A stretch of 64,000 nt of DNA from Ruminococcus sp. (GTDB lineage Bacteria; Bacillota; Clostridia; Oscillospirales; Ruminococcaceae), in assembly GCA_017470905.1 (NCBI GenBank), contig JAFUXL010000003.1, forward strand, positions 62,001 through 126,000. Reading direction: 5' to 3'. The translations under genes were made by a program, and so were the position numbers. Positions 19,280 through 37,346 of this stretch are shown one piece after another. The notes under the pieces were generated by a model, which did not search any database, was not told the DNA's origin, and saw only the letters and a list, made by a program, of their open reading frames with translations. The stretch's first letter is position 1; each line of letters starts with the position of its first letter.

Positions 19280-19398
19280 CTATGATTGAGCAGATTTAAA
19301 ATTGTTCGGAATAATATACAAAAAAGTATAATAAAAAGCGATGTTTCCTCCGCCGCAGGCGGAGGAAACAGGGACAAATTCAAAATGCTCATTTATAG
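19280..19398. repeat. Complete inverted-end repeat element upstream of acpP
   Basis: The distal end CTATGATTGAGCAGATTT and the proximal end AAAATGCTCATTTATAG are imperfect inverted repeats. Between them lies an AT-rich part with TATAAT-like sequence and a perfect 12-bp hairpin, GTTTCCTCCGCC-GCA-GGCGGAGGAAAC (19343-19369). The proximal end is 29 bases from the acpP start. Sister copies: 30015-30143, 33832-33957, 37221-37346. Confidence 0.85.
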
Positions 19399-19427
19399 TA
19401 AAAAAATATATAATGGAGGAAAAAGAA

Positions 19428-19673
19428 ATGGTTTTTGAAACACTCAAGGACATTATCGTTGACCAGCTCGGAGTTGATGAGGACGCAGTTACATTGGAGG
19501 CAGACATTCAGGACGACCTCGGCGCAGACTCTCTCGACATTGTTGACCTTATACAGACAATCGAGGAAGAATATGAGGAGCAGAAGCTTTCTATTCCCGA
19601 TGAGGCTGTTGAGGGCATAAAGACGGTAGGCGATATTGTAAGCTATATCGAGAGCCACATAGACGTTGAATAA
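19428..19673 (+). CDS. acpP: Acyl carrier protein
   Basis: 81-residue acidic carrier that holds the growing acyl chain on phosphopantetheine. The attachment Ser35 is in [10 protein letters not shown]. The start MVFETLKD is set by GGAGG eight bases upstream; an in-frame extension would run into the repeat element. Last gene of the fatty-acid cluster, with a strong terminator after it. Because a repeat element separates it from accA, acpP may have its own promoter or leader. Confidence 0.97.
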
Positions 19674-19688
19674 TTGAACATAAAGAGA

Positions 19689-19719
19689 AAAGCCGTCCGG
19701 TATTTCCGGGCGGCTTTTT
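19689..19719 (+). terminator. Rho-independent terminator after acpP
   Basis: The stem AAAGCCGTCCGG with CCGGGCGGCTTT is followed by TT. Confidence 0.9.
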
Positions 19720-19723
19720 GCAT

Positions 19724-19757
19724 AAAAAATCCCTCCCGTGCGGAAGGGATTTTTTTT
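19724..19757. terminator. Bidirectional rho-independent terminator
   Basis: AAAAAATCCCT and AGGGATTTTTT flank a short loop; with A and T runs on both sides it can also terminate the minus-strand gene that ends at 19765. Confidence 0.85.
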
Positions 19758-19764
19758 ATCGTTA

Positions 19765-21024
19765 TCAGAGCTTTTTCTTTTCCTCGTCTATCATTCTTAT
19801 GAGGTCGTCAACGGACATGGCATCGACCTTTTTCTTGTTCCTGATTTTCTCGGCTCTCCTGATAATATCGGATATATCGGGGGAGGAGTCTGTGTTTATG
19901 GCAGGAGCAGTTTCGGTTTCCGCAGAAACGGGAGCCTGTGTCCTTACATTTACGGCTTTCTGGCTGTTTACGCCCTGAATGTCGCTGTTTGATTTGTAGA
20001 TAACGCCCGTATCGTCATTTGCGGTCTTTTCATAAACGGGAGAGGGCTTCTGCGAATTGACAACAGATGAGGGAGCAGGAGCTTCAAATCTTTCAAGCTC
20101 AAGGGGCTTTGCGGACTGTTTGGAAAGGGTTTCGTTTTCTTCGGGAACAGCCTCATGAGAGGGATAGGAGGGCTTGTTTGATTTCTGGGCGGCAAATCTT
20201 GCGGTTTCGGCTTTCTGCGCCTTGAACTGCATGGTTCGCTCCTTTTCTTTCTGATAGGGGGAGTCGTGATTTACCTCTTTCTGGCTGAAATTTTCGGCTA
20301 TGGACATCTTTTTTCTTTCAAGCTCGTCATTGACTGCGGGCTGAATTTCGGGTTCAAAGAGGGGATTGCCGTTCTTTGTGCGTGATTTCTTTTCGTCGGA
20401 TTTTTTATCCTCGTCCTCGTCATAGCTGTAGAAGCCGTATTCTTCATCGTCGTCCTCATCGTCATAATCGTCCTCGTATTCGTCATCGCTGTTCTTTGAA
20501 GATGCGATTTTTACTATGAGGAGTATGAGCAGGATTACGCAGGGAACAATAAGCTCGGCAATAATTCCCTTTATATCGAGTGTGAACGCAATGAATTTTC
20601 CGAGTTCGAGACTTTCGGGGTAGCCCGTGCATACTGCGAGTATTCTGTCCTTGGTTATGGAGTCGGTGTTGTCCTCGTGAACGGAGTCACGGGTATAGTA
20701 TCTTTCCGTGCCGTATTCCGACTCAACGACAGCGTTGATACTTCTGATGGTTGCCTGAGAGGGGTCGTCTGCCGGATAGCATATGACTATATCGCCTGCG
20801 GCAATGCTTATATGCTTTGCCTCCTTTGCGATGAGAGCCGCACCTGTCGAGACATCACCTTCGAGGGGGTTGGGGTCATCAACTATGTAGATATACCTGT
20901 CGCTTATGTGGGGGATTTTGCTCTGGGTAAAGAGTACGTTGATGCCTACAGAAATAATCACCGAGAATATGCATATAATTACTATGAACATTCTTAATAC
21001 GGAGAAGCCTTTGTTTTTCTTCAT
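19765..21024 (-). CDS. SipW-like (signal peptidase I-fold) membrane protein with long disordered tail
   Basis: 419 residues from the ATG at 21024 (AAGGA nine bases upstream). A membrane helix at about 12-35 is followed by an external domain of about 120 residues that follows the layout of SipW-type signal peptidases: AAGDIVICYPAD, then SITKDRILAVCTGYPESL near a second membrane helix (about 157-177). The catalytic Ser of the usual S-G-S-M motif is not seen (the matching stretch reads DVSTGAALIA), and the catalytic Lys/His position is not obvious. The cytoplasmic tail is acidic (EYEDDYDDEDDDEEYGF), then Lys/Ser/Pro-rich and probably disordered. It may be an inactive relative or a scaffold. Confidence 0.55.
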   Translation of the reverse strand: MKKNKGFSVLRMFIVIICIFSVIISVGINVLFTQSKIPHISDRYIYIVDDPNPLEGDVSTGAALIAKEAKHISIAAGDIVICYPADDPSQATIRSINAVVESEYGTERYYTRDSVHEDNTDSITKDRILAVCTGYPESLELGKFIAFTLDIKGIIAELIVPCVILLILLIVKIASSKNSDDEYEDDYDDEDDDEEYGFYSYDEDEDKKSDEKKSRTKNGNPLFEPEIQPAVNDELERKKMSIAENFSQKEVNHDSPYQKEKERTMQFKAQKAETARFAAQKSNKPSYPSHEAVPEENETLSKQSAKPLELERFEAPAPSSVVNSQKPSPVYEKTANDDTGVIYKSNSDIQGVNSQKAVNVRTQAPVSAETETAPAINTDSSPDISDIIRRAEKIRNKKKVDAMSVDDLIRMIDEEKKKL

Positions 21025-21094
21025 GTATACCATTCCTTTTCTTTATTTTTGCCTGCGGCAGAGAGAGAACCGCCCGTCAAAAGTCATCTGATAT

Positions 21095-21123
21095 ATTATA
21101 ACACATAATAAATAAAATTTCAA
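21095..21123 (-). promoter_or_regulatory. Promoter of the SipW-like gene
   Basis: Minus strand TTGAAA (21118-21123), 17-base spacer, TATAAT (21095-21100). Apart from this and the glgP promoter I see nothing in the 437-base divergent gap. Confidence 0.75.
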
Positions 21124-21323
21124 TAAATAATACAAAATTTTTTCTGATTTTTTTTGTGATAATTGCAGAATGTCGTATTTTTTACAAAAAGCGGCATATT
21201 AATACCTGTTTTTGGATAATCTATACAGAAATAATATTCAATATATATGCATAAAATAGATTTTGCCGTTTGTGTTTCGGTAATATGTTGATTCCGTTGA
21301 TAAATATTTGTTGAAATATACAA

Positions 21324-21352
21324 TTGAAAAAATTCTTGAAATATGATAAAAT
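21324..21352 (+). promoter_or_regulatory. Promoter of glgP
   Basis: TTGAAA (21324-21329), 17-base spacer, TAAAAT (21347-21352), giving a leader of about 100 bases before glgP. Confidence 0.65.
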
Positions 21353-21461
21353 AGAAATGTACAGACTGCGGATTTATTTCCCGTCCGGATATTTTTCCGT
21401 TCGGAGCAGATGAATGTATGACCAAAAGAACGCCGCCCCTGCGGCAGAAGGAGATTTATGT

Positions 21462-23879
21462 ATGGCAAACAATCAGACGGATATGATTATGGAGAAAATC
21501 AGGAATAATTTTTCAAAGAAGCTTCAGGTTCTCTTCAGCGTTACCCCCGAAGAGGCATCGGATAAACAGGTATATCAGGTGCTTTCTTCGATAATCGTTG
21601 ACGTTCTCAGAACCAAAAGAAATGAATTTATCAACCATACCCATTCGGTAGGCGGAAAGCAGGTTTACTACCTCTCGATGGAATTTCTCATGGGACGTTC
21701 CCTCAAAACCAGCCTCTATAACCTCGGCATTGCGGACAGTGTTTCAAAAATGCTCAAGGGTCACAATATAAACCTCGACAAGATTTTTGAACAGGAACCC
21801 GACGCAGGTCTTGGAAACGGCGGTCTCGGCAGACTTGCTGCCTGCTATCTCGATGCCCTCGCAACAACGGGCTTCCCTGCTATGGGCTATTCGATATGCT
21901 ACGAATTTGGTATCTTTCAGCAGAAATTGCAGGACGGTATGCAGATAGAGCTTGCGGATGACTGGCTTCCCGGCGGCAGTGTATGGCTCGTCCCAAGACC
22001 CGAGCTTGCAATCGAGGTTCATTTTGACGGCGAAATTCAGGAAACATGGGATAACCAGCACTACCATGCTACCCACGTAAACTATAAAACAGTAATAGCT
22101 ACTCCCTATGATATGTATGTTTCGGGCTACGATACGGAGGCAGTTTCAACACTCCGTCTCTGGGGCGCAAAGGCTCCCGGCTTCAGCCCCGAGGCTATGG
22201 AGAAATTCGCAGAGGGTCACTTCGCCGAGGCTTACTCGATGAATGCTATCGACAACTGCATTTCAAAGGTTCTCTATCCCAACGACAACCATCAGGAGGG
22301 CAAGAACCTCCGTCTCCGCCAGCAGTATCTCCTCTGTGCGGCATCTGTCGGCGATATAGTAAACCATCACATGAACGTTTACGGCACTCTCGAAAACCTC
22401 CCCGACAAGGTTGCCATTCATATAAACGACACACACCCCACACTCGCTATCCCCGAGCTTATGAGAATACTCCTCGATGACTGCGGCTATCAGTGGGATA
22501 AGGCATGGGATATTGTCACAAGAACATTTGCCTATACCAACCATACCGTTATGGCTGAGGCTCTCGAAAAATGGGATATTGACCTCATCAAGCACGTTGT
22601 TCCGAGAATACACAATATCATCATGGAAATCAACAGAAGATACTGTCAGCAGCTTATGGAGTTCAACAACAACGACAGCGCAAAGACAACACGTATGTCA
22701 ATCGTCAAGGACGGAAAAATCCATATGGCTACTCTCTGCGTTGCGGCATCGCACAGCGTAAACGGCGTTTCAAAGCTTCATTCGCAGATAATCAAGGACT
22801 CCGTATTCCATGACGAATATGAATATACCCCCAATAAATTCAAGAACGTTACCAACGGTATCGCTTACAGAAGATGGCTCTATCAGTCCAACCCCAGACT
22901 TACACAGCTCCTCACGGAGAAAATCGGCAGCAAGTTCATAAAGGACGCATCGGAGCTTATCAAGTTCAGAGACTTCCAGAACGATGAAGAGGTACTCAAG
23001 AGCCTCCTCGATGTAAAGCAGGCTAATAAAGAGGCTTTCGCAAAGCGCCTCAAGAAAAAGAGCGGCATAATCGTAAATCCCGACAGCATTTTCGATGTTC
23101 AGGTAAAGCGTCTCCACGAATACAAGAGACAGCACCTCAATGCGCTCAATATACTTGCCGACTATGCTTACCTCCTCAGCAACCCCGATGCGGACTTCAC
23201 TCCAAAGACCTATATGTTCGCTGCAAAGGCTGCTCCCGGATATTACCTCGCAAAGCAGATTATAAAGCTTATATGGGCTATCTCCGAGGAGATAAGAAAG
23301 AACCCCAAGATAAGCGAAAAGCTTCAGGTTGTATTCCTCGAAAACTACTGCGTTACCCTTTCGGAACACCTCATGCCCGCCGCAGACATATCCGAACAGA
23401 TTTCAACGGCAGGTACGGAGGCATCAGGTACGGGCTGTATGAAGCTCATGCTCAACGGCGCAGTTACACTTGGTACTCTTGACGGAGCAAACATCGAGAT
23501 AAAGGATGCCTGCGGAGAAGAGAACATCGTTATATTCGGCATGACGACCCCCGAAGTAAACGACCTCAAGGCAAGAGGCTACAACCCCGATGACTATTTC
23601 AAGGGCGACAGCAGAATTAACGAGGCAATCGAGCGTATGTACCACGGTATCAACGGCTGTACATTCGTTGATGTTGCAGACTCTCTCAGGCTCAGAGACC
23701 CCTACATGGTGCTTGCGGATTTCGACAGCTACAGAAAGGCACAGGCTTATATTACAGAGTGCTACAATGACAGAATGAAGTGGGCTAAGATGTCCCTCAA
23801 CAATATCGCAGGAGCAGGAATTTTCTCTGCAGACCGTGCAGTTACGGAGTATGCGGACAATATCTGGCATTTAAGATAA
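21462..23879 (+). CDS. glgP: Glycogen/maltodextrin phosphorylase
   Basis: Releases glucose-1-phosphate from alpha-1,4-glucans using phosphate and PLP. 805 residues from the ATG at 21462 (AAGGAG eight bases upstream). Key segments: VYYLSMEFLMGRSL, GNGGLGRLAACYLDA, HINDTHPTLAIPELMR, VKRLHEYKRQ and the PLP-Lys motif EASGTGCMKLMLNG (Cys where many relatives have Asn). The next gene encodes a GH13 alpha-glycosidase, consistent with intracellular glucan breakdown. Codon use is highly biased, suggesting strong expression. Own promoter and terminator. Confidence 0.96.
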   Translation: MANNQTDMIMEKIRNNFSKKLQVLFSVTPEEASDKQVYQVLSSIIVDVLRTKRNEFINHTHSVGGKQVYYLSMEFLMGRSLKTSLYNLGIADSVSKMLKGHNINLDKIFEQEPDAGLGNGGLGRLAACYLDALATTGFPAMGYSICYEFGIFQQKLQDGMQIELADDWLPGGSVWLVPRPELAIEVHFDGEIQETWDNQHYHATHVNYKTVIATPYDMYVSGYDTEAVSTLRLWGAKAPGFSPEAMEKFAEGHFAEAYSMNAIDNCISKVLYPNDNHQEGKNLRLRQQYLLCAASVGDIVNHHMNVYGTLENLPDKVAIHINDTHPTLAIPELMRILLDDCGYQWDKAWDIVTRTFAYTNHTVMAEALEKWDIDLIKHVVPRIHNIIMEINRRYCQQLMEFNNNDSAKTTRMSIVKDGKIHMATLCVAASHSVNGVSKLHSQIIKDSVFHDEYEYTPNKFKNVTNGIAYRRWLYQSNPRLTQLLTEKIGSKFIKDASELIKFRDFQNDEEVLKSLLDVKQANKEAFAKRLKKKSGIIVNPDSIFDVQVKRLHEYKRQHLNALNILADYAYLLSNPDADFTPKTYMFAAKAAPGYYLAKQIIKLIWAISEEIRKNPKISEKLQVVFLENYCVTLSEHLMPAADISEQISTAGTEASGTGCMKLMLNGAVTLGTLDGANIEIKDACGEENIVIFGMTTPEVNDLKARGYNPDDYFKGDSRINEAIERMYHGINGCTFVDVADSLRLRDPYMVLADFDSYRKAQAYITECYNDRMKWAKMSLNNIAGAGIFSADRAVTEYADNIWHLR

Positions 23880-23888
23880 TTACACCCG

Positions 23889-23919
23889 AAAAGGGGACGA
23901 ATATCCGTCCCCTTTTTTT
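23889..23919 (+). terminator. Rho-independent terminator after glgP
   Basis: AAAAGGGGACG and CGTCCCCTTTT stem followed by T residues. Confidence 0.9.
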
Positions 23920-23998
23920 GTCAGGGAATATCACTTACAAAAAAATACGGATATTGCCGAAAAATATGTGCAGTATGCTTATGGATTTCAGGCTTGCC

Positions 23999-24017
23999 CC
24001 TCCGCCGCCGGCGGAGG
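23999..24017. repeat. Minimal GC-hairpin repeat
   Basis: CCTCCGCCGCCGGCGGAGG is a perfect palindrome matching the central hairpin of the larger elements, in the glgP-glycosidase gap. Confidence 0.7.
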
Positions 24018-24128
24018 GCAGAGAAGAAATATAGATTTATCCCCGTTACAGGCATGGGGAAAGAAAAATAATATCATCTGCTCCCTGTACCGGGGAGTAT
24101 AAAAATTCTGAATAACAGGAGGTTTTTT

Positions 24129-26018
24129 ATGAAACCGATTTACGATACATGGCATATGAACTACAAATCCATTTTCGGTGCGCTGAGACAGTACGAAAAA
24201 TGCCGCTTTTCAATAAGACTTTCAAAGGATATAAGACCCGATTTTCCGCCCGTTCTTGTGCTTTTCAGAACAGGCTTCAAGGAGAGGTTCATACCTATGA
24301 ACGTTTCGGGCGAGGAGGAGGACTGCTTTGTCTATTCCTGCGACTTTACCGCAAGGTACAGCGATGTGCATTATTATTATTTCTCCTATACAAGCGGAGG
24401 AATACGTCACTATATAAAGAAAGTAAGCTCCCACGAGGGCGCAGAGCGTGAGGGCGACCTCTTTCAGCTTACCGTCTATGAGAGCGACTACGAAACTCCA
24501 GATTTTCTCAAAGGCGGAGTAATGTACCAGATATTCCCCGACCGTTTCTGCAAAAGCGGAAAGGTTCACGAGAATATCCCCGAAGGAAGAGTACTGCGTG
24601 AGGACTGGGGCGGCACTCCCTACTACAGACCCGACCACAACGGTCATGTGTGGAATAATGACTATTTCGGCGGAGATTTCGCAGGAATACAGTCAAAGCT
24701 TGAATATCTGCACGACCTCGGAGTTACCTGCATATATCTCAACCCGATATTCGAGTCGCACGAAAACCACAGATATAATACAGCAGACTATATGAAAGCC
24801 GACCCCCTCCTCGGAACCAACGAGGAATTTGAGGAGCTTTGCCGTGAGGCTGAAAAATACGGCATATCCATAATCCTTGATGGTGTGTTCTCCCACACGG
24901 GTGCGGACAGCGTTTATTTCAACAAGAACGGCAGATACCCCGAAGCAGGTGCTTATCAGTCGAGAGAAAGCAAATACTATGACTGGTACACGTTCATAAA
25001 TTACCCCAATGTCTATGAGGCATGGTGGGGAATTGACACGCTCCCCAATGTCTGTGAAAACAATGAGGACTACACGGAATTTATCTGCGGAGACGAGGGA
25101 GTACTGCATTACTGGCTCTCAAAGGGTGCGGCAGGTTTCCGTCTCGATGTTGCTGACGAACTGCCCGACCAGTTTTTGAATAATTTAAGAAAATCCGTGA
25201 AGAATTTCGGAAACGACAAGATAGTCATAGGCGAGGTATGGGAGGACGCATCAAACAAGGAAAGCTACGGCATAAAACGCCGCTATCTCCTCGGCGACCA
25301 GCTTGACTCGGTTATGAATTATCCTTTCAGAGAGGCGATAATAAATTTCGTAAAGGGCGGAAGTCCGAGGAATTTAATAGACTCCGTTATGACAATCCTT
25401 GAACATTATCCCAAGCCGACAATAGACGTTCTTATGAATTTTGTGTCCACGCACGATATTGAAAGGGCTATAAACCGTCTCGGCGGCGAATACTGTGACG
25501 ACAAATCAAAGGACTGGATGGCTGAACGCTGGCTTAATGACCAACAGTACGCACACGGAAAAAATCTCCTTAAAGCGGCTATGGCTCTGCAATTTTTCCT
25601 CCCCGGAGTGCCGAGCATATACTACGGAGATGAGGCAGGCTTGCAGGGATATAAAGACCCGTTCAACCGCCGCTGCTATCCGTGGGGTCACGAGGATAAG
25701 GAGCTTATCGCCTATGTTTCGGAACTCAGCCGTGTGAGAAAGGCTATTCCGAATATGAAAGGCGGAAGAACTTATTTCGTGATAAATGACGAGCGCATAA
25801 ATGACGACCGCCTCATTGCTTTCACGAGAGAGGGCGCAGAAAGGGATCATATAGTATTCGTCAACAGGAGCGGAGACAATGTATGCTTCGGCAGTCTTGC
25901 CGAAAATCTGCCCCGTTTCAACGATTTCAAGCCCGAATACGGCGGCTCGTGCGAAAATGACAGCGTAACTGTCGCACCCTACGGATATACCATAATTTCC
26001 GCAAAATTCCTCGGATAA
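24129..26018 (+). CDS. GH13 alpha-glycosidase (cyclomaltodextrinase/neopullulanase-like)
   Basis: Hydrolyses alpha-1,4/1,6 glucans or cyclodextrins. 629 residues, no signal peptide, so cytoplasmic. The N-terminal 120 residues resemble a CBM34-like beta domain. The catalytic barrel starts GGVMYQIFPDRFCKSG. The conserved regions are visible: DGVFSHTG, GFRLDVADE with nucleophile Asp340, IGEVWED with acid/base Glu369, and VSTHDIER with the third carboxylate Asp443. AGGAGG ribosome binding site. Together with GlgP it would degrade intracellular glycogen or imported maltodextrins. The precise substrate is not readable. Confidence 0.9.
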   Translation: MKPIYDTWHMNYKSIFGALRQYEKCRFSIRLSKDIRPDFPPVLVLFRTGFKERFIPMNVSGEEEDCFVYSCDFTARYSDVHYYYFSYTSGGIRHYIKKVSSHEGAEREGDLFQLTVYESDYETPDFLKGGVMYQIFPDRFCKSGKVHENIPEGRVLREDWGGTPYYRPDHNGHVWNNDYFGGDFAGIQSKLEYLHDLGVTCIYLNPIFESHENHRYNTADYMKADPLLGTNEEFEELCREAEKYGISIILDGVFSHTGADSVYFNKNGRYPEAGAYQSRESKYYDWYTFINYPNVYEAWWGIDTLPNVCENNEDYTEFICGDEGVLHYWLSKGAAGFRLDVADELPDQFLNNLRKSVKNFGNDKIVIGEVWEDASNKESYGIKRRYLLGDQLDSVMNYPFREAIINFVKGGSPRNLIDSVMTILEHYPKPTIDVLMNFVSTHDIERAINRLGGEYCDDKSKDWMAERWLNDQQYAHGKNLLKAAMALQFFLPGVPSIYYGDEAGLQGYKDPFNRRCYPWGHEDKELIAYVSELSRVRKAIPNMKGGRTYFVINDERINDDRLIAFTREGAERDHIVFVNRSGDNVCFGSLAENLPRFNDFKPEYGGSCENDSVTVAPYGYTIISAKFLG

Positions 26019-26124
26019 GGGATTTTCTGCATATTTTATCCGCATTTATATATTTTCGTAGGAAAATCGTAATATTTATCATATTTATCTTCAAAAGTTG
26101 TAATAATTTTTAATGTTTCTGATA

Positions 26125-26153: not shown

Positions 26154-26185
26154 ATAGCTGTAATAAAAATTAAGGAGAGATAAAT

Positions 26186-26950
26186 ATGAGAAAATTTTTC
26201 AGTATCGCACTTGCATCGCTTCTTATCGTAAGTAGCCTTGCATCATGCGGAAGCACGGAGACAGAGACATCTTCAGGCAGCTCCGGGTCGGAGGCTGCGG
26301 AGGCTAAGAGAGCAGCTGAAACCACAGAGGCAGAGACAGAGGAAGAAACCACCGAAGAGGAAACCACAGAGGCAGAGACGGAGGAAGAAACCACCGAAGC
26401 AGATACCGATGATGACGACGAAATCAGCGATGACGAATTGGAAATTACTACAATCGCAATGCCCGAACTCGTTCCCGATGATGCTGCCGAGGGTGATTTT
26501 ATCGGCAAATGGGAAGCTTCAAAGATGATTGCTGACGGAATTTACATGGAGGACTTCATGGGCATTCCCCTTGGTGTCATGATGCAGCTTGAAATCAAGG
26601 ACGACTACACGGCAGTTGTTGCATCAACTCTTGAAGATACAGATGTTGAGTCAATGACATGGGAATACACCGACAACGGCATTTCAATCCTCGATGAAAA
26701 CGGAGAGGCTACTTCATGTATCATCATGAACGGCGAGCTTGTACTCTACGGTGAAGAGGACGGCGCAGAGGAGCAGGTATATTTCACAAAGGTTGACGAA
26801 TTTACACAGATGTCGGAAGAAGAACTTCAGGCTCTCATGGAGGAGGCTTTCGGTTCGCTTGCCGAGGATATAGACGTACCTGATACCGATACAGAAGTTG
26901 AAGACGATGATACGGACGTTGAGGAAGAAATCACCGATACGGCAGAATAA
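26186..26950 (+). CDS. Putative lipoprotein with Glu/Thr-rich linker (paralogue 1)
   Basis: 254 residues. A lipoprotein signal (MRKFFSIALASLLIVSSLASC) ends in a lipobox with the lipidated Cys at 21. Residues 25-85 are a low-complexity acidic linker (repeats of EEETTEAET type). A globular domain at about 95-215 opens DDAAEGDFIGKWEASKM and contains beta-rich segments such as VMMQLEIKDDYTAVVAS, resembling small lipocalin-like lipoprotein domains of Clostridia. The C-terminus is again acidic. It is anchored on the outside of the membrane. Function unknown. Its paralogue is the next gene. Confidence 0.8.
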   Translation: MRKFFSIALASLLIVSSLASCGSTETETSSGSSGSEAAEAKRAAETTEAETEEETTEEETTEAETEEETTEADTDDDDEISDDELEITTIAMPELVPDDAAEGDFIGKWEASKMIADGIYMEDFMGIPLGVMMQLEIKDDYTAVVASTLEDTDVESMTWEYTDNGISILDENGEATSCIIMNGELVLYGEEDGAEEQVYFTKVDEFTQMSEEELQALMEEAFGSLAEDIDVPDTDTEVEDDDTDVEEEITDTAE

Positions 26951-27124: not shown

Positions 27125-27889
27125 ATGAAAAAATTAATAAGCTTATTGGCAGTGTCTGTTATTATAGCAAGCTGCTTTGCAGGCTGCGGCGATACGGGAA
27201 CAAGTGAAACGGAGCTTTCGTCATCGTCCTCGTCACAGACCGATGAAGAAACCGCCGAAGAGGAAACCACGGAGGAAGAAACCACCGAGGAAGTTACCGA
27301 GGAGGAAACCACCGCAGAAGTTACCGAAGAGGAATTGTCCGATGAAGAAGAGGAAATCCCCGAAATCGAAACCGTACCCATGCCCGAATATAATCCCGAT
27401 GATGCCGCAGAGGATGATTTTGTCGGCAACTGGGAATGTACAAAAATGCTCTCCGCAGGACAGTTTGGGCATATTATTGAGGGCGACCTCTACGGTATTC
27501 CCCTTAATGTCGTTGCACAGATAATCATAAATGACGATAATACGGGCGTTTTAAGCTCAGGTCTTGAGGGCAGCGAAGATGCGGCAACAAAATTCACATG
27601 GGAATTTGCGGACAAGAGACTTAACCTCACGATAGATGACGAGGATGAAGAAATCGAAAATATGTTTCTCTACATGCAGGACGGGGATTTGATAATGTCC
27701 TCTGATGCGGACGAGGAGCTGGTTTATTTCCAGAAGGTTGACCAGCTCACCTACTTCACGGAGGAAGATTTATACAAGGCTATGGGAATTGACCCCGCCG
27801 ATATAGTTGCGGATGTAGAGGGAGAAGATACCGAAGATACGGAAGATACCGTGGAAAGCGAAGAACCCGAAACCGCCGCCGAAGAATAA
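27125..27889 (+). CDS. Putative lipoprotein with Glu/Thr-rich linker (paralogue 2)
   Basis: 254 residues, the same length and plan as the preceding gene. The signal MKKLISLLAVSVIIASCFAGC puts the lipidated Cys at 21. An acidic linker (EEETTEEETTEEVTEEE) follows. The globular domain opens DDAAEDDFVGNWECTKM and continues YGIPLNVVAQIIINDDNTG, matching paralogue 1 segment by segment. AAAGGAG ribosome binding site. It arose by tandem duplication that kept the promoter. Function unknown. Confidence 0.8.
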   Translation: MKKLISLLAVSVIIASCFAGCGDTGTSETELSSSSSSQTDEETAEEETTEEETTEEVTEEETTAEVTEEELSDEEEEIPEIETVPMPEYNPDDAAEDDFVGNWECTKMLSAGQFGHIIEGDLYGIPLNVVAQIIINDDNTGVLSSGLEGSEDAATKFTWEFADKRLNLTIDDEDEEIENMFLYMQDGDLIMSSDADEELVYFQKVDQLTYFTEEDLYKAMGIDPADIVADVEGEDTEDTEDTVESEEPETAAEE

Positions 27890-29625: not shown

Positions 29626-29982
29626 TCAGTAATTCATATCGTCAACATATACGGTTATCTTGTTGACATCAATTCCGGCAGCCTGTTCAACGGTAAAGCC
29701 TACCTTATGGATAATACTGCTGACGGCTGCGGAGATATTTGTGCCGTAGGAAACTTTTATATGGAGGTCGATAACAAGACCGCCGTCCTTATCGGTACGT
29801 ATAACAACTCCCCTGCGTCTGAAAAGTCTGCCCTTTGTTATGGCAGATACAGCGGAACGGAACGTATTTACATTACACACATCAGCAACGCCGAAGCAGT
29901 CGCATACGGCATGGCGGACAAGCTCTGTTATATAATTTTCAGTAACCGAAATCTGACCGATGTGGTTTTCAACCGTGACCAT
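29626..29982 (-). CDS. Asp23/Gls24 family envelope stress-like protein (YloU type)
   Basis: 118 residues from the ATG at 29982 (AAGGGG upstream). The Asp23 fold is seen in GQISVTENYITELVRHAVCDCFGVADV and in GLVIDLHIKVSYGTNISAAVSSI. The family is paired with fakA in many Firmicutes; its role is linked to membrane or lipid homeostasis but not settled. A complete repeat element ends 32 bases upstream of the start, so transcription probably passes through or begins in it. Confidence 0.88.
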   Translation of the reverse strand: MVTVENHIGQISVTENYITELVRHAVCDCFGVADVCNVNTFRSAVSAITKGRLFRRRGVVIRTDKDGGLVIDLHIKVSYGTNISAAVSSIIHKVGFTVEQAAGIDVNKITVYVDDMNY

Positions 29983-30014: not shown

Positions 30015-30143
30015 CTACAAATGAGCATTTTGAAATAATGTACAAAAATCTTTATATTTTTTCTTATTCCCCCTGCCTGCGGCAGGGGGAATATGGTTTT
30101 TTTGTATATTACCCCGAACAATTTTAAATTTGCTCAATCACAG
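30015..30143. repeat. Complete inverted-end repeat element upstream of asp23-fakA
   Basis: The proximal end CTACAAATGAGCATTTT (30015) faces the asp23 start and the distal end AAATTTGCTCAATCACAG finishes at 30143. The central 13-bp perfect hairpin TATTCCCCCTGCC-TGC-GGCAGGGGGAATA is at 30065-30093. The stem sequence differs from the other copies but pairing is kept. Confidence 0.85.
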
Positions 30144-30260
30144 TGCGGAAAACATTCCGCAAAGATATTATATCATATTTCTTTATAATTTGCAACAGCA
30201 AACTGAAAAAAATTGCAGATATTGATTTTATAATATTTTTCTGCGGTTTATAACAGATAA

Positions 30261-31102: not shown

Positions 31103-31154
31103 ATAATTTTCCTCCTGTAATATGAAATGTAAACGCACGAGATAAACCAATACT

Positions 31155-31183
31155 ATTATAATACAAAATGTATAATAAGTAAA
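31155..31183 (-). promoter_or_regulatory. Promoter and palindromic operator of the XRE gene
   Basis: Minus strand TTTACT (31178-31183), 17-base spacer, TATAAT (31155-31160). The spacer and -10 carry a near-perfect palindrome around ATACAAAATGTAT (31157-31177, one mismatch in the arms), well placed for repression by the encoded HTH protein. Confidence 0.7.
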
Positions 31184-31290
31184 TATGCGTAAATATGAAA
31201 TAAATTTGAATTTTTTTGTGGATTTTTGTTAATATTATTAAAACGTCAAAAACGGGCTGTGATTTTTGTACATAATGCTGTAATATTTAT

Positions 31291-31316
31291 ATCTCTCCGT
31301 ATGCGGCGGAGGAGAT
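31291..31316. repeat. Minimal GC-hairpin repeat upstream of the phosphatase gene
   Basis: ATCTCTCCG and CGGAGGAGAT arms with a GC-rich loop; it resembles the core of the larger elements. Confidence 0.6.
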
Positions 31317-31370
31317 AAAAAATCCGCCGCATTGTGAATATCAGAATTAAAAATATAAAGAGGTGTTTTT

Positions 31371-32009
31371 ATGAAAGGCTACAGAATAAGCGTTATCCGC
31401 CACGGATTAACCGAGGCTAATGAAAATGGTATATATATCGGAAAAACCGATTTGCCCCTCTCTCCAAAGGGTGCAGGCGAACTTGCCGCAAAAATGGACG
31501 AATATGACTACCCCACGGTTTACAGGGTATATTCCTCTCCGCTGAAAAGATGCACCGAAACCGCAGAAATACTCTTCCCCGAAACCGAGCTTGTAAGGGT
31601 TGACGGTCTGCGTGAACTGGATTTGGGAGTATTCGAGAACAAAAGCTTTAAGGAGCTTCTGAACCGTGACGATTATAAGCAATGGCTGAGCGGCAAAAAT
31701 AACGAGCGTCCGCCGCAGGGCGAAAGCCTTGAAGAAATGACCGCAAGGACTTTTTCCGCACTGCACAATATAATAATGGATATGATGCAGAGCGGAGTGA
31801 CAAAAGCCGCCATTATAACCCATTCGGGAATTATATCGAATATGCTCTCATGCTTCGGACTTCCGAAATATGACCCGAGATATTTGACCGCCAAAGCCGG
31901 AGAGGGCTTTGACATAATGATAAATACTCAGATGTGGCTCAATTCACAGGCGTTCGAGATACTGGGCTACTGTCCGTATGAACGCATTCCAAACGAGGAA
32001 TATGTATAA
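31371..32009 (+). CDS. Histidine phosphatase family protein
   Basis: 212 residues of the phosphoglycerate-mutase-like family. The catalytic RHG motif is VIRHGLTEANENG at about residue 10, then SSPLKRCTETAEIL, the acidic ELDLGVFENK and the second His in IITHSGI. The family includes broad-specificity phosphatases and CobC; no cobalamin genes are nearby, so the substrate is unknown. It may be transcribed together with the membrane protein gene 53 bases downstream. Confidence 0.88.
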   Translation: MKGYRISVIRHGLTEANENGIYIGKTDLPLSPKGAGELAAKMDEYDYPTVYRVYSSPLKRCTETAEILFPETELVRVDGLRELDLGVFENKSFKELLNRDDYKQWLSGKNNERPPQGESLEEMTARTFSALHNIIMDMMQSGVTKAAIITHSGIISNMLSCFGLPKYDPRYLTAKAGEGFDIMINTQMWLNSQAFEILGYCPYERIPNEEYV

Positions 32010-32062
32010 TCTCCCTGTATTTTCACATAATATATGCAGAATTTTTACAGAGGTGTATTATT

Positions 32063-32911
32063 ATGAAGGTCAGGGAGCTTATGCGGTTTTCAAGAAAATA
32101 TCTCAGCGGCAGAAGAACGGCTGTACTCATGATATGTATGCTTCCGCTCGGTGCGGAGCTTATTTTCAGGCTTGCGGAGGCTGTCATATACAGTATGCTC
32201 CTGTATTACGGCTATATGCAGCCTATGGATATTCTGACGGGTTCTGTCGGGATACAGCTTGCGGCATGGAGTTTATTTACGCTTATACGCTGGCTTGTAT
32301 GCGCACCTCTGTACTATGCGGCGGCTGTGAGACTTAGCGAAATATGCCGTGAAAGAAAAAATTTCACTCCGCTTTCTTCAATAATACTCGGCAGGCGGTC
32401 ATTCCGCAGATGTGCAGGAGCAGTGCTTCTGACAAAACTAATCGGGATAATATTTTCGCTCCCTGTGATAATATCGGCGGTGTGGGCATACAGGCTCATC
32501 GAAAGGGACAGGCTTTTCCTGGCACTTCATGCTCTTGCGGCTGCGGTATTTTCGTTGTATATATACCTGTGTGTCAGGATGAATTTGTCGGCTGTGCCGT
32601 TTATAATGGCTGAATACAGGGATAAAGGCATATTCAGGATAGTTTTCGGCTCGTTCGGTCTTTTGAAAAAAAGAAAGCGGATTTTGCTTAAACTGATATT
32701 TGCCTACGGAGCTGTTATGCTCACCGTCATAGCCGTGCCGTATATATTGCCCGAATTTATGACGGCATTTTCGCTCAGTATATCAATATTCATAAGAGAG
32801 GACGAATATTTTGAAGGAAATAGTATTCTCAGCCGAGACGGAAAAGCCCGTGAGGCTCGAAAAATTCCTCATGAAAAAAGGCGTTTCAAGGCGGCTGCTG
32901 ACAAGGCTTAA
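32063..32911 (+). CDS. Integral membrane protein of unknown function
   Basis: 282 residues with about five to six hydrophobic segments (for example TAVLMICMLPLGAELIFRLAEAV, IIFSLPVIISAVWAY, ALAAAVFSLYIYLCV, LTVIAVPYILPEF). The layout resembles DUF975-like or polytopic envelope proteins, but I do not recognise it. The last 34 residues (from about REDEYFEG) overlap the next gene by 101 bases and are basic and not membrane-like. Either the overlap is genuine or a frameshift has replaced the original end. AGAGGTG ribosome binding site. Confidence 0.65.
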   Translation: MKVRELMRFSRKYLSGRRTAVLMICMLPLGAELIFRLAEAVIYSMLLYYGYMQPMDILTGSVGIQLAAWSLFTLIRWLVCAPLYYAAAVRLSEICRERKNFTPLSSIILGRRSFRRCAGAVLLTKLIGIIFSLPVIISAVWAYRLIERDRLFLALHALAAAVFSLYIYLCVRMNLSAVPFIMAEYRDKGIFRIVFGSFGLLKKRKRILLKLIFAYGAVMLTVIAVPYILPEFMTAFSLSISIFIREDEYFEGNSILSRDGKAREARKIPHEKRRFKAAADKA

Positions 32912-33653
32912 ACACCATGAAAACGGCATAACACGAAACGGTCTTGTGATACGCTCGACAGATGATGTTCATAACGGCGATATTATCGTCCTGAAAATCG
33001 ATGATGATAAATTCCTCGAACCGAACGGCAGTCTTGATATTAAAACAGCCTATGAGGACGAGAATGTAATAATATTTGACAAGCCGTCGGGAGTACCCGT
33101 TCATCCGTCACTTAAACATCATGATGATACATTGGGGAATTATTTCGCATATCTTTTCCCGGATTTCACATTCAGACCCGTCCACCGCCTCGATAATTAC
33201 ACATCAGGACTGTGCCTTATTGCAAAGGACGCACTTTCCGCAAATATTCTTCAGGGAAATTTCAGAAAACTATACTATGCCGCCGTTCACGGCATAACCG
33301 ATGAATGCGGAATGATAGATGCTCCCGTTGCAAGGCAGGATAACAGCATAATTCTGCGCTGTGTGCGCAGTGACGGTCAGAGAGCCGTAACGCATTACAA
33401 AAGACTGTGTTATAATGATAAATATTCACTGCTGGAGATAAACCTCGAAACGGGGAGAACACATCAGATAAGGGTACATTTTGCGCATATCGGACACCCA
33501 CTCGCAGGCGATGAGCTTTACGGGGGGGAATGTGAGGACATAAAAAGACAGGCTCTCCACTGCGGACGGATTGAATTTAACCAGCCTGTCACGGGGGAAT
33601 TAATATCCGTAAAATCGGATTTTCCCGATGATATGAAAAAGTTATTTAAATAA
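32811..33653 (+). CDS. RluA family 23S rRNA-type pseudouridine synthase
   Basis: Isomerises uridine to pseudouridine in RNA. 280 residues from a TTG start with GAGG about nine bases upstream. An S4-like N-terminal domain (VRLEKFLMKKGVSRRLLTRLK) is followed by the catalytic domain with DKPSGVPVHPS and the active-site Asp in PVHRLDNYTSGL, then LLEINLETGRTHQIRVHFAHIGHPLAGDELYGG. The S4 domain needs the early start, which explains the overlap with the membrane protein gene. The target site is not readable. Confidence 0.9.
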   Translation: MKEIVFSAETEKPVRLEKFLMKKGVSRRLLTRLKHHENGITRNGLVIRSTDDVHNGDIIVLKIDDDKFLEPNGSLDIKTAYEDENVIIFDKPSGVPVHPSLKHHDDTLGNYFAYLFPDFTFRPVHRLDNYTSGLCLIAKDALSANILQGNFRKLYYAAVHGITDECGMIDAPVARQDNSIILRCVRSDGQRAVTHYKRLCYNDKYSLLEINLETGRTHQIRVHFAHIGHPLAGDELYGGECEDIKRQALHCGRIEFNQPVTGELISVKSDFPDDMKKLFK

Positions 33654-33831
33654 CAGGGGATTGGGCGTCTCCCCCATTCTAAATCATGTTTGGGAGAAGT
33701 AAAGAAGAAAAAATGAAGAAGAAAGAATAAAGCATAAATAATAAAATTTTGTGCAGACATACGAAATATTAAAAAATACTGCATTTGTTGTTGTAATTTT
33801 TTCTGAAAATGATATAATTATTAAGTACGGT

Positions 33832-33957
33832 CTGTAATTAAGCAGATTTAAAATTATTCTTGATAATATAATAAAAAACAGCGTTCCTCCGCCAACGGCG
33901 GAGGAACAGAGACAAAATATAAAAATTTTTGCATTATCTTAAAATGCTAATTTATAG
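33832..33957. repeat. Complete inverted-end repeat element upstream of the M23 peptidase gene
   Basis: Distal end CTGTAATTAAGCAGATTT, proximal end AAAATGCTAATTTATAG, and a perfect 11-bp hairpin GTTCCTCCGCC-AAC-GGCGGAGGAAC at 33883-33907. The proximal end is 35 bases from the TTG start of the next gene. Apart from it I see no other feature in the 33654-33992 gap. Confidence 0.85.
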
Positions 33958-33992
33958 CAAAAAAAAGAAATATAACGAAAGGAGTGCTGCCG

Positions 33993-35888
33993 TTGAAATT
34001 TATAATCAGCCTTTTTGAATGGATAGGACACTGTGTAACGGATTTGTTTGTTCTCATAATCCGTGCCGTGATAAAGGCTTTTATATTCATGTTTTCGGGA
34101 ATATGGCGTTTCATGCGGAATATGGCAGGGAGATTTTCGGATTTTCTGGATAAATCAAAAAAATCTTTCCGTGAGCGTGTCGAGCTTTCGCAGGAGCTTT
34201 CAAAGGACGTAAGAAAGGCTAAGAAAAAGGGCGTTGATGAATACCGCCGTGCAGTACTGAAATTCATAGGTTATTTTCTCTTCGGAGAAGCCGGAATTTT
34301 GCGCACGACATTCAATTACATAATGCCTGTTCTTTCAATAGCCGTCCTCCTCGCAGTGATAAGCAGGGGAGTAAATCTCGAATACGGCATAGCCGTGGAA
34401 TACAACGGCAGAGAAATAGGAATTATAACCGCAGAGGCTGATTTTGAAGAGGCACAGAAAGAGGTCAGAAAACGTCTTGCCTATAACGATGACGGCGAAG
34501 ATACGGATTTTGACTCAATGGCAAGACTTCATGTTAAAATATTATCCGACAGCGATAAGTATGTATCTTCATTGCAGCTTGCAAATGCCATGCTTTCGGC
34601 ATCCGAACAGGAACTCGCCGAAGCCTGCGGAATTTACATAGACGGAGAATTTACGGGTGCGGTAAAGGATAACAAAGCCGTAAAGGACGCTCTTGACGAC
34701 AGGCTCGACAATTTTTCGGCGGACGGCATTGTAAAGAATATCTCCTATGTTAATAAAATCGAATACGTTGACGGAATATACCTCACAAGCAGTATAATGG
34801 ACGAAAACGAAATGATAGCCCTGCTCACCTCGACAAAGGAAAACGATGCGACCTATGTCGTTCAGGATAAGGATACCCCCGTCGGCATATCCCAGAAATA
34901 TAACATGGATTTCGATAAATTCGAGGAGCTTAACCCCATTATAAGAAACAGATGTCTCCCCGGTCAGGTAGTCAATGTCATAGAGCATGAGAGCTTTCTC
35001 CCGATACAGTATACGAGGGAAATGGAAACGCTCTCGTATCTCGATTTTGAAACCATCGAGGTGCAGACAAGCTCCCTCGACTACGGCACTAAAAAACTTC
35101 TTGTCAAGGGCGAAAAGGGCGAGAAGAGAAGCAAGGTCGAAGTTACCTATATTGACGGCAAGGAAGCCTCACGCAGAACTGTCAGCAGCGAAATAACCAA
35201 AGAACCTGTCGTTCAGCAAATGGGCGTGGGAATGTCCGCCGCAAGACCCGATTATCCCGATACGGTTTATAACGGAGGCCCTCTCACGGGTACGGGACAG
35301 TTTGCATGGCCTGTTGACGGCGGCTGGATAAGCGATGTATTCATAAGCGACAGAAACCATATGGGTCTTGATATTGCCGCAGACTCAGGCACGAATATAT
35401 ATGCCGCAGATGACGGATATATCGTAACGGCAGGCTGGAATGCAGGCGGCTACGGAAATGTCGTGATGATGGACCACCTCAACGGCTATCAGACAGTATA
35501 CGGTCATATGAGCTATGTAGTGGCGGTGGAGGGACAGTATGTGACAAAAGGTCAGTTAATAGGACTGGTAGGCTCTACGGGAGACTCAACGGGTCCGCAC
35601 TGTCATTTCGAGGTGCGCTATCTCGGTGTACATGATGACCCTGCAAATTATCTCAACACATCGGGAGTTATCTACAATCCCGAACAGCAGGACAGCAATG
35701 CGGAGGAAAATAATCAGGATAATCCCGATACGGATAACAATTCCGTTCCCTATGCGGATAATCCGCAGAATGATGAGCCGAACGGATATATTGACCCGAA
35801 TTACGACCCCAACGCGTATGCTGAACCATATTATGACCCGAATGCATATGTTGAGCCGTACTATGACCCGAATTATTACGGCTACTGA
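33993..35888 (+). CDS. Membrane-anchored M23 peptidase with LysM and G5 domains
   Basis: 631 residues from a TTG start (AAAGGAG eight bases upstream). Hydrophobic segments lie near residues 1-45 and 105-125 (YIMPVLSIAVLLAVISRGV). Outside the cell follow a helical region, a LysM-like module (TYVVQDKDTPVGISQKYNM, GQVVNVIE), a G5-like domain (ETIEVQTSSLDYG, GEKRSKVEVTYIDGKEASR) and an M23 zinc endopeptidase domain. The M23 domain has zinc ligands in HMGLDIAADSG and PHCHFEVRY, with VYGHMS between. The tail has tyrosine-rich repeats of the form YYDPNAY. It should cut peptidoglycan cross-links. One gene, with a repeat element 35 bases upstream. Confidence 0.93.
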   Translation: MKFIISLFEWIGHCVTDLFVLIIRAVIKAFIFMFSGIWRFMRNMAGRFSDFLDKSKKSFRERVELSQELSKDVRKAKKKGVDEYRRAVLKFIGYFLFGEAGILRTTFNYIMPVLSIAVLLAVISRGVNLEYGIAVEYNGREIGIITAEADFEEAQKEVRKRLAYNDDGEDTDFDSMARLHVKILSDSDKYVSSLQLANAMLSASEQELAEACGIYIDGEFTGAVKDNKAVKDALDDRLDNFSADGIVKNISYVNKIEYVDGIYLTSSIMDENEMIALLTSTKENDATYVVQDKDTPVGISQKYNMDFDKFEELNPIIRNRCLPGQVVNVIEHESFLPIQYTREMETLSYLDFETIEVQTSSLDYGTKKLLVKGEKGEKRSKVEVTYIDGKEASRRTVSSEITKEPVVQQMGVGMSAARPDYPDTVYNGGPLTGTGQFAWPVDGGWISDVFISDRNHMGLDIAADSGTNIYAADDGYIVTAGWNAGGYGNVVMMDHLNGYQTVYGHMSYVVAVEGQYVTKGQLIGLVGSTGDSTGPHCHFEVRYLGVHDDPANYLNTSGVIYNPEQQDSNAEENNQDNPDTDNNSVPYADNPQNDEPNGYIDPNYDPNAYAEPYYDPNAYVEPYYDPNYYGY

Positions 35889-35890
35889 AT

Positions 35891-36125
35891 TAATGCATAA
35901 TTCATAATTAAATTAATCCATAATGCGTTGGGGTAAAAGGCAAAATATAATAAAAGACTATATATCCCCTTGCTAACGATGGAGGGAAAAACATAATAAA
36001 AGCCACATATCCCTTGCTGACGGCGGAGGGAGAATATAATATAAAAAATTCTGCCTGTATTGTTAAACCATATTCATTTGCAGCAAAATAATAATTATGC
36101 ATTATGTATTATGAATTATGAATTA
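35891..36125. repeat. Repeat-filled intergenic stretch
   Basis: TAATGCATAATTCATAATTA at 35891-35910, two degenerate tandem hairpin cores (around 35965-35985 and 36007-36030, each reading TATCCCnTTGCTnACGnnGGAGGGA), and several joined copies of the AT-rich repeat at 36092-36125. The last of these encodes the end of the YkgJ-like protein. No gene is seen. Confidence 0.7.
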
Positions 36126-36588
36126 ACAAAATCGGGTAGTTTTCGTTGTAGGGGCGCACCTCTTCGGGGTGAATATCCGCATAGGAGAATATCCTGTCAG
36201 CAAGTCCGTTTTTCAGAAATCCGACAAGCTCCGACAGCGGACGGTTGTAAAATTCACTGCACACAACAGCGGCGGTTATTGCCCTTGCGCCGTTTATTTC
36301 CATTACCATGTAGGGGAATATCCTGCAAATGAAAGGCTTGTCATCGCCGAGCATACAGCCATTTTCCGTGAGTGCAGGGCATTTGAATGTCCCGTCGGGG
36401 CTGAAATCGGCGGCTTTGAATATATATCCGCCGTCTTTCGGGATAAATTCGGCATCGGGCTTGCGTGAGACTATATATTCTTTCATCTTCCGTGAAAAGA
36501 CGGGCGTTTCCCATATATCATAAATATCAAAGACACAGCACATTCTGCACTGCGCACATACTGCCGGACTGATTAATTCTTTTATCAT
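36109..36588 (-). CDS. YkgJ family cysteine cluster (CxxCxxCC) protein
   Basis: 159 residues. The N-terminal CAQCRMCC cluster, CPALTENGC and FICRIFPY form the metal-binding pattern of the YkgJ/UPF0153 family, thought to bind zinc or iron-sulfur. Function is not established. Its last residues IHNS and the stop come from the dispersed AT-rich repeat. AGGTG ribosome binding site; it begins just after the khpA terminator. Confidence 0.85.
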   Translation of the reverse strand: MIKELISPAVCAQCRMCCVFDIYDIWETPVFSRKMKEYIVSRKPDAEFIPKDGGYIFKAADFSPDGTFKCPALTENGCMLGDDKPFICRIFPYMVMEINGARAITAAVVCSEFYNRPLSELVGFLKNGLADRIFSYADIHPEEVRPYNENYPILLIHNS

Positions 36589-36598
36589 AAATCACCTA

Positions 36599-36627
36599 TG
36601 AAAAAACCGCTGATAAACAGCGGCTTT
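36599..36627 (-). terminator. Rho-independent terminator after rpsP-khpA
   Basis: On the minus strand AAGCCGCTG-TTTAT-CAGCGGTTTTTTC; a 7-bp GC-rich stem with T-run. Confidence 0.85.
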
Positions 36628-36633
36628 TCTGCA

Positions 36634-36870
36634 TTATTCTTCGATAGTGACAGAAACTTTAAGGTCTCTCTTGGCAGCACCTGCTCTCATGATTGTTCTG
36701 AGTGCCTTGGCAATTCTGCCCTGCTTTCCGATAACTCTGCCCATATCATCGGGAGCAACGGAAAGGTGGAAAACGATAACGCCCTCTGCATCGGGTTCGT
36801 CCTCGACGATTTTGATAGCAGATTTGTCCTCTACGAGTCCTGCTGCGATAGCATAAAGTAAATCTTTCAT
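36634..36870 (-). CDS. khpA: KH domain RNA-binding protein KhpA
   Basis: 78 residues from the ATG at 36870 (GGAGG seven bases upstream). The single KH domain has the GxxG loop in MGRVIGKQGRIAKALRTIM. KhpA binds RNA, usually with KhpB, and affects cell-wall and division gene expression in Firmicutes. It follows rpsP, as in many genomes. Confidence 0.94.
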   Translation of the reverse strand: MKDLLYAIAAGLVEDKSAIKIVEDEPDAEGVIVFHLSVAPDDMGRVIGKQGRIAKALRTIMRAGAAKRDLKVSVTIEE

Positions 36871-36945
36871 GATAAATCCTCCATAGTTCCGCAAACGAGA
36901 GGGCTTGGACACTTGTCCTCCCTCCGTTTTGCAGTTTTTTAACGA

Positions 36946-37188
36946 TTAAAGTATGCCTTCCTTTTTGAGAAGGACTTTTACTGTATCTGTAGGCTGTGCG
37001 CCCTTAGAAATCCAGTCCTTTGCCTTATCAGCATCAATTTTAATTACGGACGGTTCCTTTGTGGGGTCATAGTAGCCTATTTCCTCGACAAATCTTCCGT
37101 CTCTGGGGTATCTTGCATCAGCAACAACCACACGGTAGAAAGGAGCTTTTTTAGCACCCATTCTTCTGAGTCTTATTTTAACTGCCAT
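36946..37188 (-). CDS. rpsP: 30S ribosomal protein S16
   Basis: 80 residues. [31 protein letters not shown] is the classic S16 start, here split by my choice of ATG at 37188 with GGAGGTGA upstream; an ATG six codons earlier overlaps the site. A complete repeat element ends 32 bases upstream of the start and separates rpsP from ffh and its small neighbours, where other Firmicutes often have ffh directly before rpsP. Confidence 0.97.
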
Positions 37189-37220
37189 TTTAATATTCAC
37201 CTCCAAAAATTACTTGTATC

Positions 37221-37346
37221 CTATGAATGAGCATTTTAAATTTTTACATTTTTTCTTTGTCTCCCTCGCCTGCGGCGATGGAGACATTACTTTTTATTAT
37301 ATTTTTGTATATTATAATAAGCAATTTTAAATTTGCCCAATCATAG
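37221..37346. repeat. Complete inverted-end repeat element upstream of rpsP
   Basis: Proximal end CTATGAATGAGCATTTT (37221) and distal end AAATTTGCCCAATCATAG (37346) are inverted repeats. Central hairpin GTCTCCCTCGCC-TGC-GGCGATGGAGAC at 37259-37285, one mismatch. Confidence 0.85.

Follow-up and report, generated by a model that had tools for sequence, protein, structure and literature searches.

A short repeat in the leaders of acpP, an asp23-family gene, an M23 peptidase gene and rpsP of a Ruminococcus sp. is a new non-autonomous family resembling miniature inverted-repeat transposable elements (MITEs), and its copies show an unusually strong polarity relative to the genes they precede. The DNA under study, here called the window, is a stretch of 64,000 nucleotides (contig JAFUXL010000003.1, positions 62,001 to 126,000). 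Across the genome the polarity is most simply explained by a predicted terminator within the element that would stop transcription in one direction only. An IS701-like DDE transposon having the same ends very probably gave rise to the element through an internal deletion, and the element then spread in the species.

Copies in the window and anatomy of the element

The four leader copies and their genes are as follows (TSD, target-site duplication; RBS, ribosome-binding site; G095, a congener syntenic with the window; the name accA is taken from reading relatives' loci).

19280..19398, + strand: copy running from A-end to B-end within the accA-acpP spacer and stopping 29 nt short of acpP (covariance model; empty site in G095)
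30015..30143, - strand: copy in the leader of asp23, 32 nt upstream of the start, with a perfect 7-bp TSD, TTCCGCA (covariance model, G095 comparison)
33832..33957, + strand: element copy in the M23 peptidase leader, 35 nt before the TTG start, with a decayed TSD, 1/7 (covariance model, G095 comparison)
37221..37346, - strand: copy separating the conserved rpsP leader from the RBS of rpsP, 32 nt upstream of the start, TSD 6/7 (covariance model, G095 comparison)
19428..19673, + strand: acpP (Pfam PF00550, PP-binding/ACP)
29626..29982, - strand: asp23-family gene (Pfam PF03780)
33993..35888, + strand: M23 peptidase with G5 domain (Pfam PF01551, PF07501)
36946..37188, - strand: rpsP (Pfam PF00886, ribosomal S16)

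The coordinates given for these copies by the first-pass annotation, and the distances of 29, 32, 35 and 32 nt between the B-end and the called starts (19428, 29982, 33993 and 37188), were reproduced, and in all four the B-end faces the gene. For M23 the called start is a TTG; an alternative GTG at 33984 would shorten the distance to 26 nt. In the window the covariance model scores the four copies at 121-132 bits (E 3e-19 to 3e-21), all four being among the 21 copies on which it was built. Ends resembling the terminal inverted repeats (TIRs), with at most 2 mismatches, occur 15 times in the window versus a shuffle mean of 6.7, and none of 100 shuffles reaches 15. Five further matches were found:

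41476..41606, - strand: extra copy at the 3' end of gene 39891-41483, its own ends decayed, 92 bits (covariance model)
61956..62086, - strand: extra decayed copy, 64 bits (covariance model)
59697..59825, - strand: weak copy whose hairpin contains a second, nested repeat, 44 bits; another A-type end lies at 59541 (covariance model)
15003..15133, + strand: weak copy, 42 bits, 31 nt before the start at 15165 (covariance model)
55177..55311: weak match, 41 bits (covariance model)

Because of these, the claim that the repeat always has the same orientation before starts holds for the four copies and not for all copies in the window. The second short repeat, GTCCCTAAAGGGATTTCYGTTGGTCA, lies within or beside the hairpins of some copies as if nested (59754-59779, 39792-39817; L008, L009, L075, L082, L098, L102).

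The consensus, from an alignment of 21 full copies, spans about 142 positions, many copies being shorter, and consists of the CTATGATTGAGCA A-end, an AT-rich block, a GC hairpin of variable sequence, a second AT-rich block and the TGCTCATTTATAG B-end. The two ends, CTATGATTGAGCA (A) and CTATAAATGAGCA (B), form imperfect TIRs with 2 differences over 13 nt and a similarity extending to about 22 bp; both are nearly intact in 48 of the best 90 copies. Among the best 60, copy length is 104-185 nt, too short for a transposase, and compensatory changes occur at 10 of the 21 predicted pairs.

Evidence of mobility

Perfect 7-bp direct repeats flank 10 of the best 60 copies, and repeats matching at 6 or more of 7 positions flank 14, as against 0.2% and 0.9% for exchanged flanks. 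The signal is strongest at length 7, and a shift-tolerant score detects it in 16 of the 48 copies with nearly intact ends versus 2.9%. Comparison with G095, in which 45 of the 56 called genes of the window are matched within 65.8 kb of one contig, revealed empty sites at acpP, asp23 and rpsP; the M23 site is also without an insert, in a less clean alignment. G095 has a single TTCCGCA at the asp23 site, where the window genome has two. By eye, the insert upstream of rpsP was seen in none of the 28 readable loci among 29 from other congeners; the region upstream of acpP was read in 19 of 29 relatives, the remaining 10 having failed the motif parse. Being short, non-coding and multi-copy, with TIRs, a TSD of constant length and empty sites, the element is MITE-like. 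These features, together with related transposons sharing its ends, bear out the mobile, MITE-like nature put forward in the first-pass annotation.

The family is narrowly distributed. With the covariance model, whose filters lose weak matches, it was found in 2 of 125 same-genus genomes, our own and G071, whereas 123 of the 124 others gave no match at E<=0.01. A loose threshold added one weak match each in G071 (E 0.03), G133 (E 0.24) and G095 (E 0.86). Read by eye, the G071 copy resembles ours in its hairpin middle and is flanked on each side by TTCTTAA; it lies directly after the stop codon of a same-strand open reading frame (ORF; L225 1-1500). This ORF carries the P-loop motif GNAGTGKST and looks NACHT/STAND-like. 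A pattern search of the genome collection gave 4 stray matches, none strong by the model, and neither were single pattern matches in six congeners (best 24.6 bits, in G133). One candidate member, in G216 (L262), was rejected as a mere hairpin match. As for phage or plasmid carriage, two exact patterns matched 0 viral contigs, the phage collection itself not having been searched, and the plasmid search returned only short Borrelia-group matches. One pattern of the related ends matched a single viral contig, L294, of which only the ORFs and the end were inspected. A literature search combining Ruminococcus and MITEs found no publication.

Putative IS701-like partners and sister elements

The ends of the element recur beside transposase genes. 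At the G027 locus they lie 1315 bp apart around a DDE transposase ORF, whose product matches the NCBIfam IS701 model NF033540 at 158 bits (cut-off 150). Used as a query, this transposase matched in 4 of the 9 genomes searched: G027, G071, G172 and G326. The transposase genes of G071 (L296, L299, L302) are 51, 49 and 43% identical to it; L296 has 2 stops, L299 runs off its contig, and for the contig-truncated G071 protein NF033540 is the best match at 61 bits, below the cut-off. In gapped alignments of 34 positions, three ends in G071 agree with the B-end at 30, 31 and 34, where 2000 random 46-mers reach at most 28. A decayed copy in G326 has one CTATAAATGAGCA end and one CTATGACTGAGCA end, the same asymmetry as in our element. 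Transposase genes thus adjoin such ends in G071, G027 and G326, none of them seen complete and intact.

Short elements with common ends and a different middle are present in G395 and G172, which belong to other families of the order; over 9 distinct insertions, a perfect 7-bp repeat flanks 7, and 8 bp fits better in 2 (L280 perfect, L288 7/8). The shared-end pattern occurs in 10 of 394 genomes of the order, our own included. The sister family in G395 (L277, L280, L286, L288, L292, L293) combines the same ends with another hairpin middle and has 30 end matches. In G402, four contigs (L268, L278, L281, L284) contain the same end sequence and break off about 139 nt into it; by our reading this sequence looks like the 3' end of a multi-copy transposase gene.

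The relative's transposase, with the same ends, thus links the element to IS701 and the IS4 superfamily, from which it differs in its end consensus and in a TSD of 7 bp instead of the 4 bp given for IS701 in PMC2266710. For this last reason we call the partner IS701-like and not a member of IS701. Assignment to the ISPepr1 subgroup of IS4 (7-8 bp TSD, ends YT-AA-YTT) was rejected: the TSD length fits, the ends CTATAAATG do not. An IS701-like enzyme would have moved the element.

Placement and polarity across the genome

In our genome (2.04 Mb, 73.75% complete) the model has 147 matches, about 60 of them strong. The search scored 150 of 2728 first-look candidates, so that low ranks may include false copies and the total is uncertain. 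Statistics were computed on 145 of the 147 matches, 2 fragments being excluded; removal of 8 overlapping called genes and 1 without a flanking gene left 136 usable. The best-60 cut was chosen after the list was seen, genes were called with a simple hexamer-based finder, and the spacer null derives from the 64-kb window alone.

The polarity is most evident in codirectional spacers, where 31 of the best 60 copies point with the genes and 3 against them (p 8e-7); among all 136 the counts are 60 and 10 (p 8e-10). A start is preceded within 60 nt by the B-end in 30 cases and by the A-end in 0 (best 60), or 56 and 3 (136), and within 150 nt in 43 and 5 (best 60). Removal of the 21 training copies from the best 86 (n=64) leaves 28:4 in codirectional spacers and 24:2 within 60 nt of a start. 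Of the 21 copies among the best 60 that occupy divergent spacers, 17 have the B-end closer to its start than the A-end (p 0.007). The spacing of 29-35 nt stands as the genome-wide mode and fails as a fixed distance: for the 52 of the best 60 that face a start, the B-end lies 4-525 nt away, with 23 at 10-40 nt and 30 at 60 nt or less. Both the location in leaders and the regularity of placement and polarity therefore extend to the whole genome; the covariance search, set as the test for random placement and orientation, did not refute them.

The choice of spacer itself appears indifferent. Codirectional, divergent and convergent spacers hold 34, 21 and 5 copies, against 32.8, 19.3 and 7.9 expected from length (p 0.52). 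Among the 136, tight operon-like spacers contain 21 forward and 0 reversed copies, in all 10 reversed codirectional copies the A-end is at least 102 nt from the next start, and where the B-end faces a 3' end it lies within 60 nt of that stop codon in 16 of 24 copies.

The proposed link to ribosome, lipid and wall genes did not hold up. A Pfam scan of 29 of the 33 listed downstream proteins (6 matchless) gave a mixed set with no common function visible: thiC, germination protease, GH43, TetR, LytR-type, Asp23, metG, rsfS, prs-like, acpP, M23, rpsP, Rex-like, MotA/ExbB-type, pheT, EPS transferase, alr, P-type ATPase, panC and a spore-V-B-like protein. The short gene names are our reading of the domains, and some domain matches fall below the library cut-off.

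A predicted one-way terminator and its consequences

The GC hairpin is asymmetric in its surroundings. The stem is clear in 45 of the best 60 copies, and in these the 15 nt after it contain on average 9.2 U when read from B to A and 1.9 when read from A to B. A hairpin followed by a U-tract only in the B-to-A reading should terminate transcription in that direction alone. The consensus scan called terminators at three of the four window copies, all pointing away from the gene:

19342..19370, - strand: terminator-like hairpin and T-tract, directed away from acpP (consensus scan)
30065..30093, + strand: terminator-like hairpin and T-tract, directed away from asp23 (consensus scan)
33882..33908, - strand: terminator-like hairpin and T-tract, directed away from the M23 gene (consensus scan)

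If such termination operates, the polarity may follow from selection. Insertions would fall in spacers of every kind, and selection would remove those copies whose terminator would stop a gene, either because the A-end is near a start or because the copy is reversed within an operon. Copies in sense orientation would be tolerated, being read through as a self-folding insert, often between the native transcription start and the RBS, and copies behind stop codons may even act as terminators. The remoteness of reversed A-ends from starts, the forward orientation of operon-like copies and the stop-proximal copies match what purging would predict for a one-way terminator. Selection would thus have produced the polarity, and we consider the whole explanation (a MITE derived from an IS701-like transposon, a one-way terminator and a purge of gene-stopping copies) reasonably probable.

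Several results weigh against this explanation. Termination by the element is itself a prediction, and the rpsP copy, whose stem has a mismatch, was not called as a terminator. The central stem has no excess of G.U intermediates in either direction (21 G.U, 23 A.C). Over all 136 copies the A-end lies within 150 nt of a start in 24 (the B-end in 83), and the divergent bias is weak (B-end closer in 31 of 52, p 0.21). In divergent spacers of the best 60, the B-end is within 35 nt of the start in 10 of 21, where purge models expect 2.2-8.3 (p <0.001 to 0.21, depending on the excluded zone). With such crowding near starts, purging alone may not suffice, and there may be room for targeting or co-option. 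As to the origin, the G027 transposase, used as the single query with other transposase kinds not sought, had no match in our 73.75% complete genome, and the 11 regions around unpaired TIR matches yielded no autonomous copy. The TSD was measured on MITE copies; its 7 bp disagree with the 4 bp of IS701, and G027, the only two-ended insertion sequence (IS) with whole-length ends, shows no clear TSD.

Predicted native promoters and alternative explanations

Promoters were scored, with a matrix of approximate frequencies, in the 50 leader copies that come from the best 86 and have the B-end within 100 nt of a start. A strong sigma-A-like promoter is present within 100 nt upstream of the A-end in 20 of these versus 1.4 in shuffles. 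The signal comes from the 34 copies not closely behind a codirectional gene (19, shuffles 1.0), in which the distance from the end of the -10 to the A-end is 9-62 nt overall and 9-30 nt in 14 of the 19; among the 16 operon-type copies, closely behind a codirectional gene, there is 1. Many copies therefore appear to lie in transcribed leaders behind native promoters, as is the case in the window for asp23 and M23. The copies at acpP and rpsP sit in close codirectional spacers.

30167..30195, - strand: promoter-like TTGCAA-17-TATAAT preceding the asp23 copy (can be aligned with G095)
33791..33818, + strand: promoter-like TTGTAA-16-TATAAT preceding the M23 copy (can be aligned with G095)

If these promoter-like sequences are used, as we infer, the leaders had promoters of their own, which speaks against the suggestion in the first-pass annotation that the element is a mobile promoter. 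In such a case, TTGAGC-18-GATAAT on the A-side, with the TATAATAAAAA block, would drive the downstream gene. The consensus does score 7.4 by the approximate matrix, the TATAATAAAAA block is conserved where present, and MITEs such as Correia carry promoters according to PMC10969869. However, with the threshold used to detect the upstream promoters, the A-to-B direction scores in only 4 of 50 copies (shuffle mean 1.7, max 4) and the B-to-A direction in 1 of 50 (mean 1.3, max 3), not clearly above shuffles. The suggestion is thus not borne out, and we find it very unlikely. The same promoters favour targeted insertion, in which the transposase would prefer promoter-proximal sites shortly behind transcription starts and would insert in a single orientation with respect to transcription; the divergent crowding near starts, in excess of several purge models, points the same way. 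On the other hand, spacer classes are used in proportion to length, 21 of the 136 copies occupy tight operon-like spacers, a setting with few promoters (1 among the 16 operon-type copies), leader length itself restricts the distances, and the G071 copy lies directly behind an ORF stop codon, not a promoter. Targeting as the source of the polarity is therefore possible, though we would not expect it. A related idea, which we think unlikely, is that the element is a portable one-way valve for 5' leaders, sitting between the native promoter and the RBS, letting sense transcription pass and stopping antisense transcription, and that it owes its polarity to orientation-specific insertion just behind active starts by an IS701-like transposase with an unusual 7-bp TSD and not only to purging.

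Co-option as a 5' leader, the folded sense copy stabilizing the mRNA, insulating the RBS or blocking antisense transcription, is rather improbable. The predicted leaders fold around the element, which folds largely alone, and the Shine-Dalgarno sequence and AUG are on average 0.43 unpaired with it and 0.47 without (19 leaders, predicted start sites); a neutral insert would also leave this pairing unchanged. The best 60 show no variation at model positions 55-58, which belong to the U-tract of the antisense terminator, an invariance that homopolymer alignment may inflate. The near-equal G.U and A.C counts of the central stem give no sign of selection for one RNA strand, so that a regulatory RNA selected on the sense strand is not supported; in the TIR stem without pair 5-138, the G.U excess is weak (52 vs 32 A.C). 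Moreover, the downstream genes lack a common function and the leaders of the syntenic congener do without the element. Position and conserved fold could also suggest an old, non-mobile riboswitch-like leader common to unrelated genes. We give this practically no credence in view of the TSDs, empty sites and IS ends, the lack of matches in nearly all same-genus genomes, and a scan of the window against Rfam in which only a tRNA reached threshold and none of the element copies did.

Comparison with known repeat families

The Correia (NEMIS) elements of Neisseria are MITEs of 204 bp, present in high copy and often upstream of genes; one is inserted just downstream of the mtrCDE promoter (PMC10969869). 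Our element resembles them in size, copy number and placement. By description the two are set apart: Correia has active promoters and an IHF site, whereas our element has no clear promoter enrichment and carries a one-way terminator-like hairpin. Membership in a Correia-like class with outward sigma-70 promoters was accordingly rejected, as far as sequence scores can tell. The pneumococcal BOX, RUP and SPRITE repeats are small and thought parasitic, and SPRITE resembles a Rho-independent terminator, a likeness shared by our element (PMC3049150). They are over-represented between convergent genes, where they are least harmful (PMC3049150); in contrast, ours is not enriched there (5 of 60 vs 7.9 expected), has many leader copies and is strongly polar. 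MITEAba12 of Acinetobacter is likewise a MITE of 111-114 bp with AT-rich targets and TSDs; it is described without orientation preference and without a predicted terminator (PMC6382973).

Other features of the window

The rpsP leader (37188-37400) and many of the congener loci L185-L213 show, by eye, a motif like GCTTTCAATGCGGTCTCCCGCCGCTTGATATACAA before the rpsP RBS. From its sequence this would be a conserved rpsP leader; the region had no Rfam match in the window. A perfect inverted repeat, TTAGCACTC-N9-GAGTGCTAA, lies at 61802-61828 upstream of gene 59874-61778 and is CIRCE-like. A distinct dispersed AT repeat, AATTATGAATTATGCATTA-like, occurs near 1017, 6710, 15138, 36086, 39697, 55131, 55382 and 59840, and a 101-nt repeat has two copies 94% identical (5837-5937, 6624-6724). 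The neighbouring similar genes 26186-26950 and 27125-27889 have E/T-rich repeats and the same upstream promoter-like TTTACA-17-TATAAT.

Biological implications

Overall, one mobile family has settled inside the leaders of many genes, those of essential type included, with a strong polarity that a predicted one-way terminator can explain. Were the valve idea true, dozens of unrelated genes, among them the essential-type acpP, rpsP, metG and pheT, would share one folded 5' leader. Since the related elements share their ends and not their middle, elements with a terminator-bearing middle can be compared with the others for orientation bias. Such a comparison would amount to a natural test of whether selection or targeting governs transposon placement.

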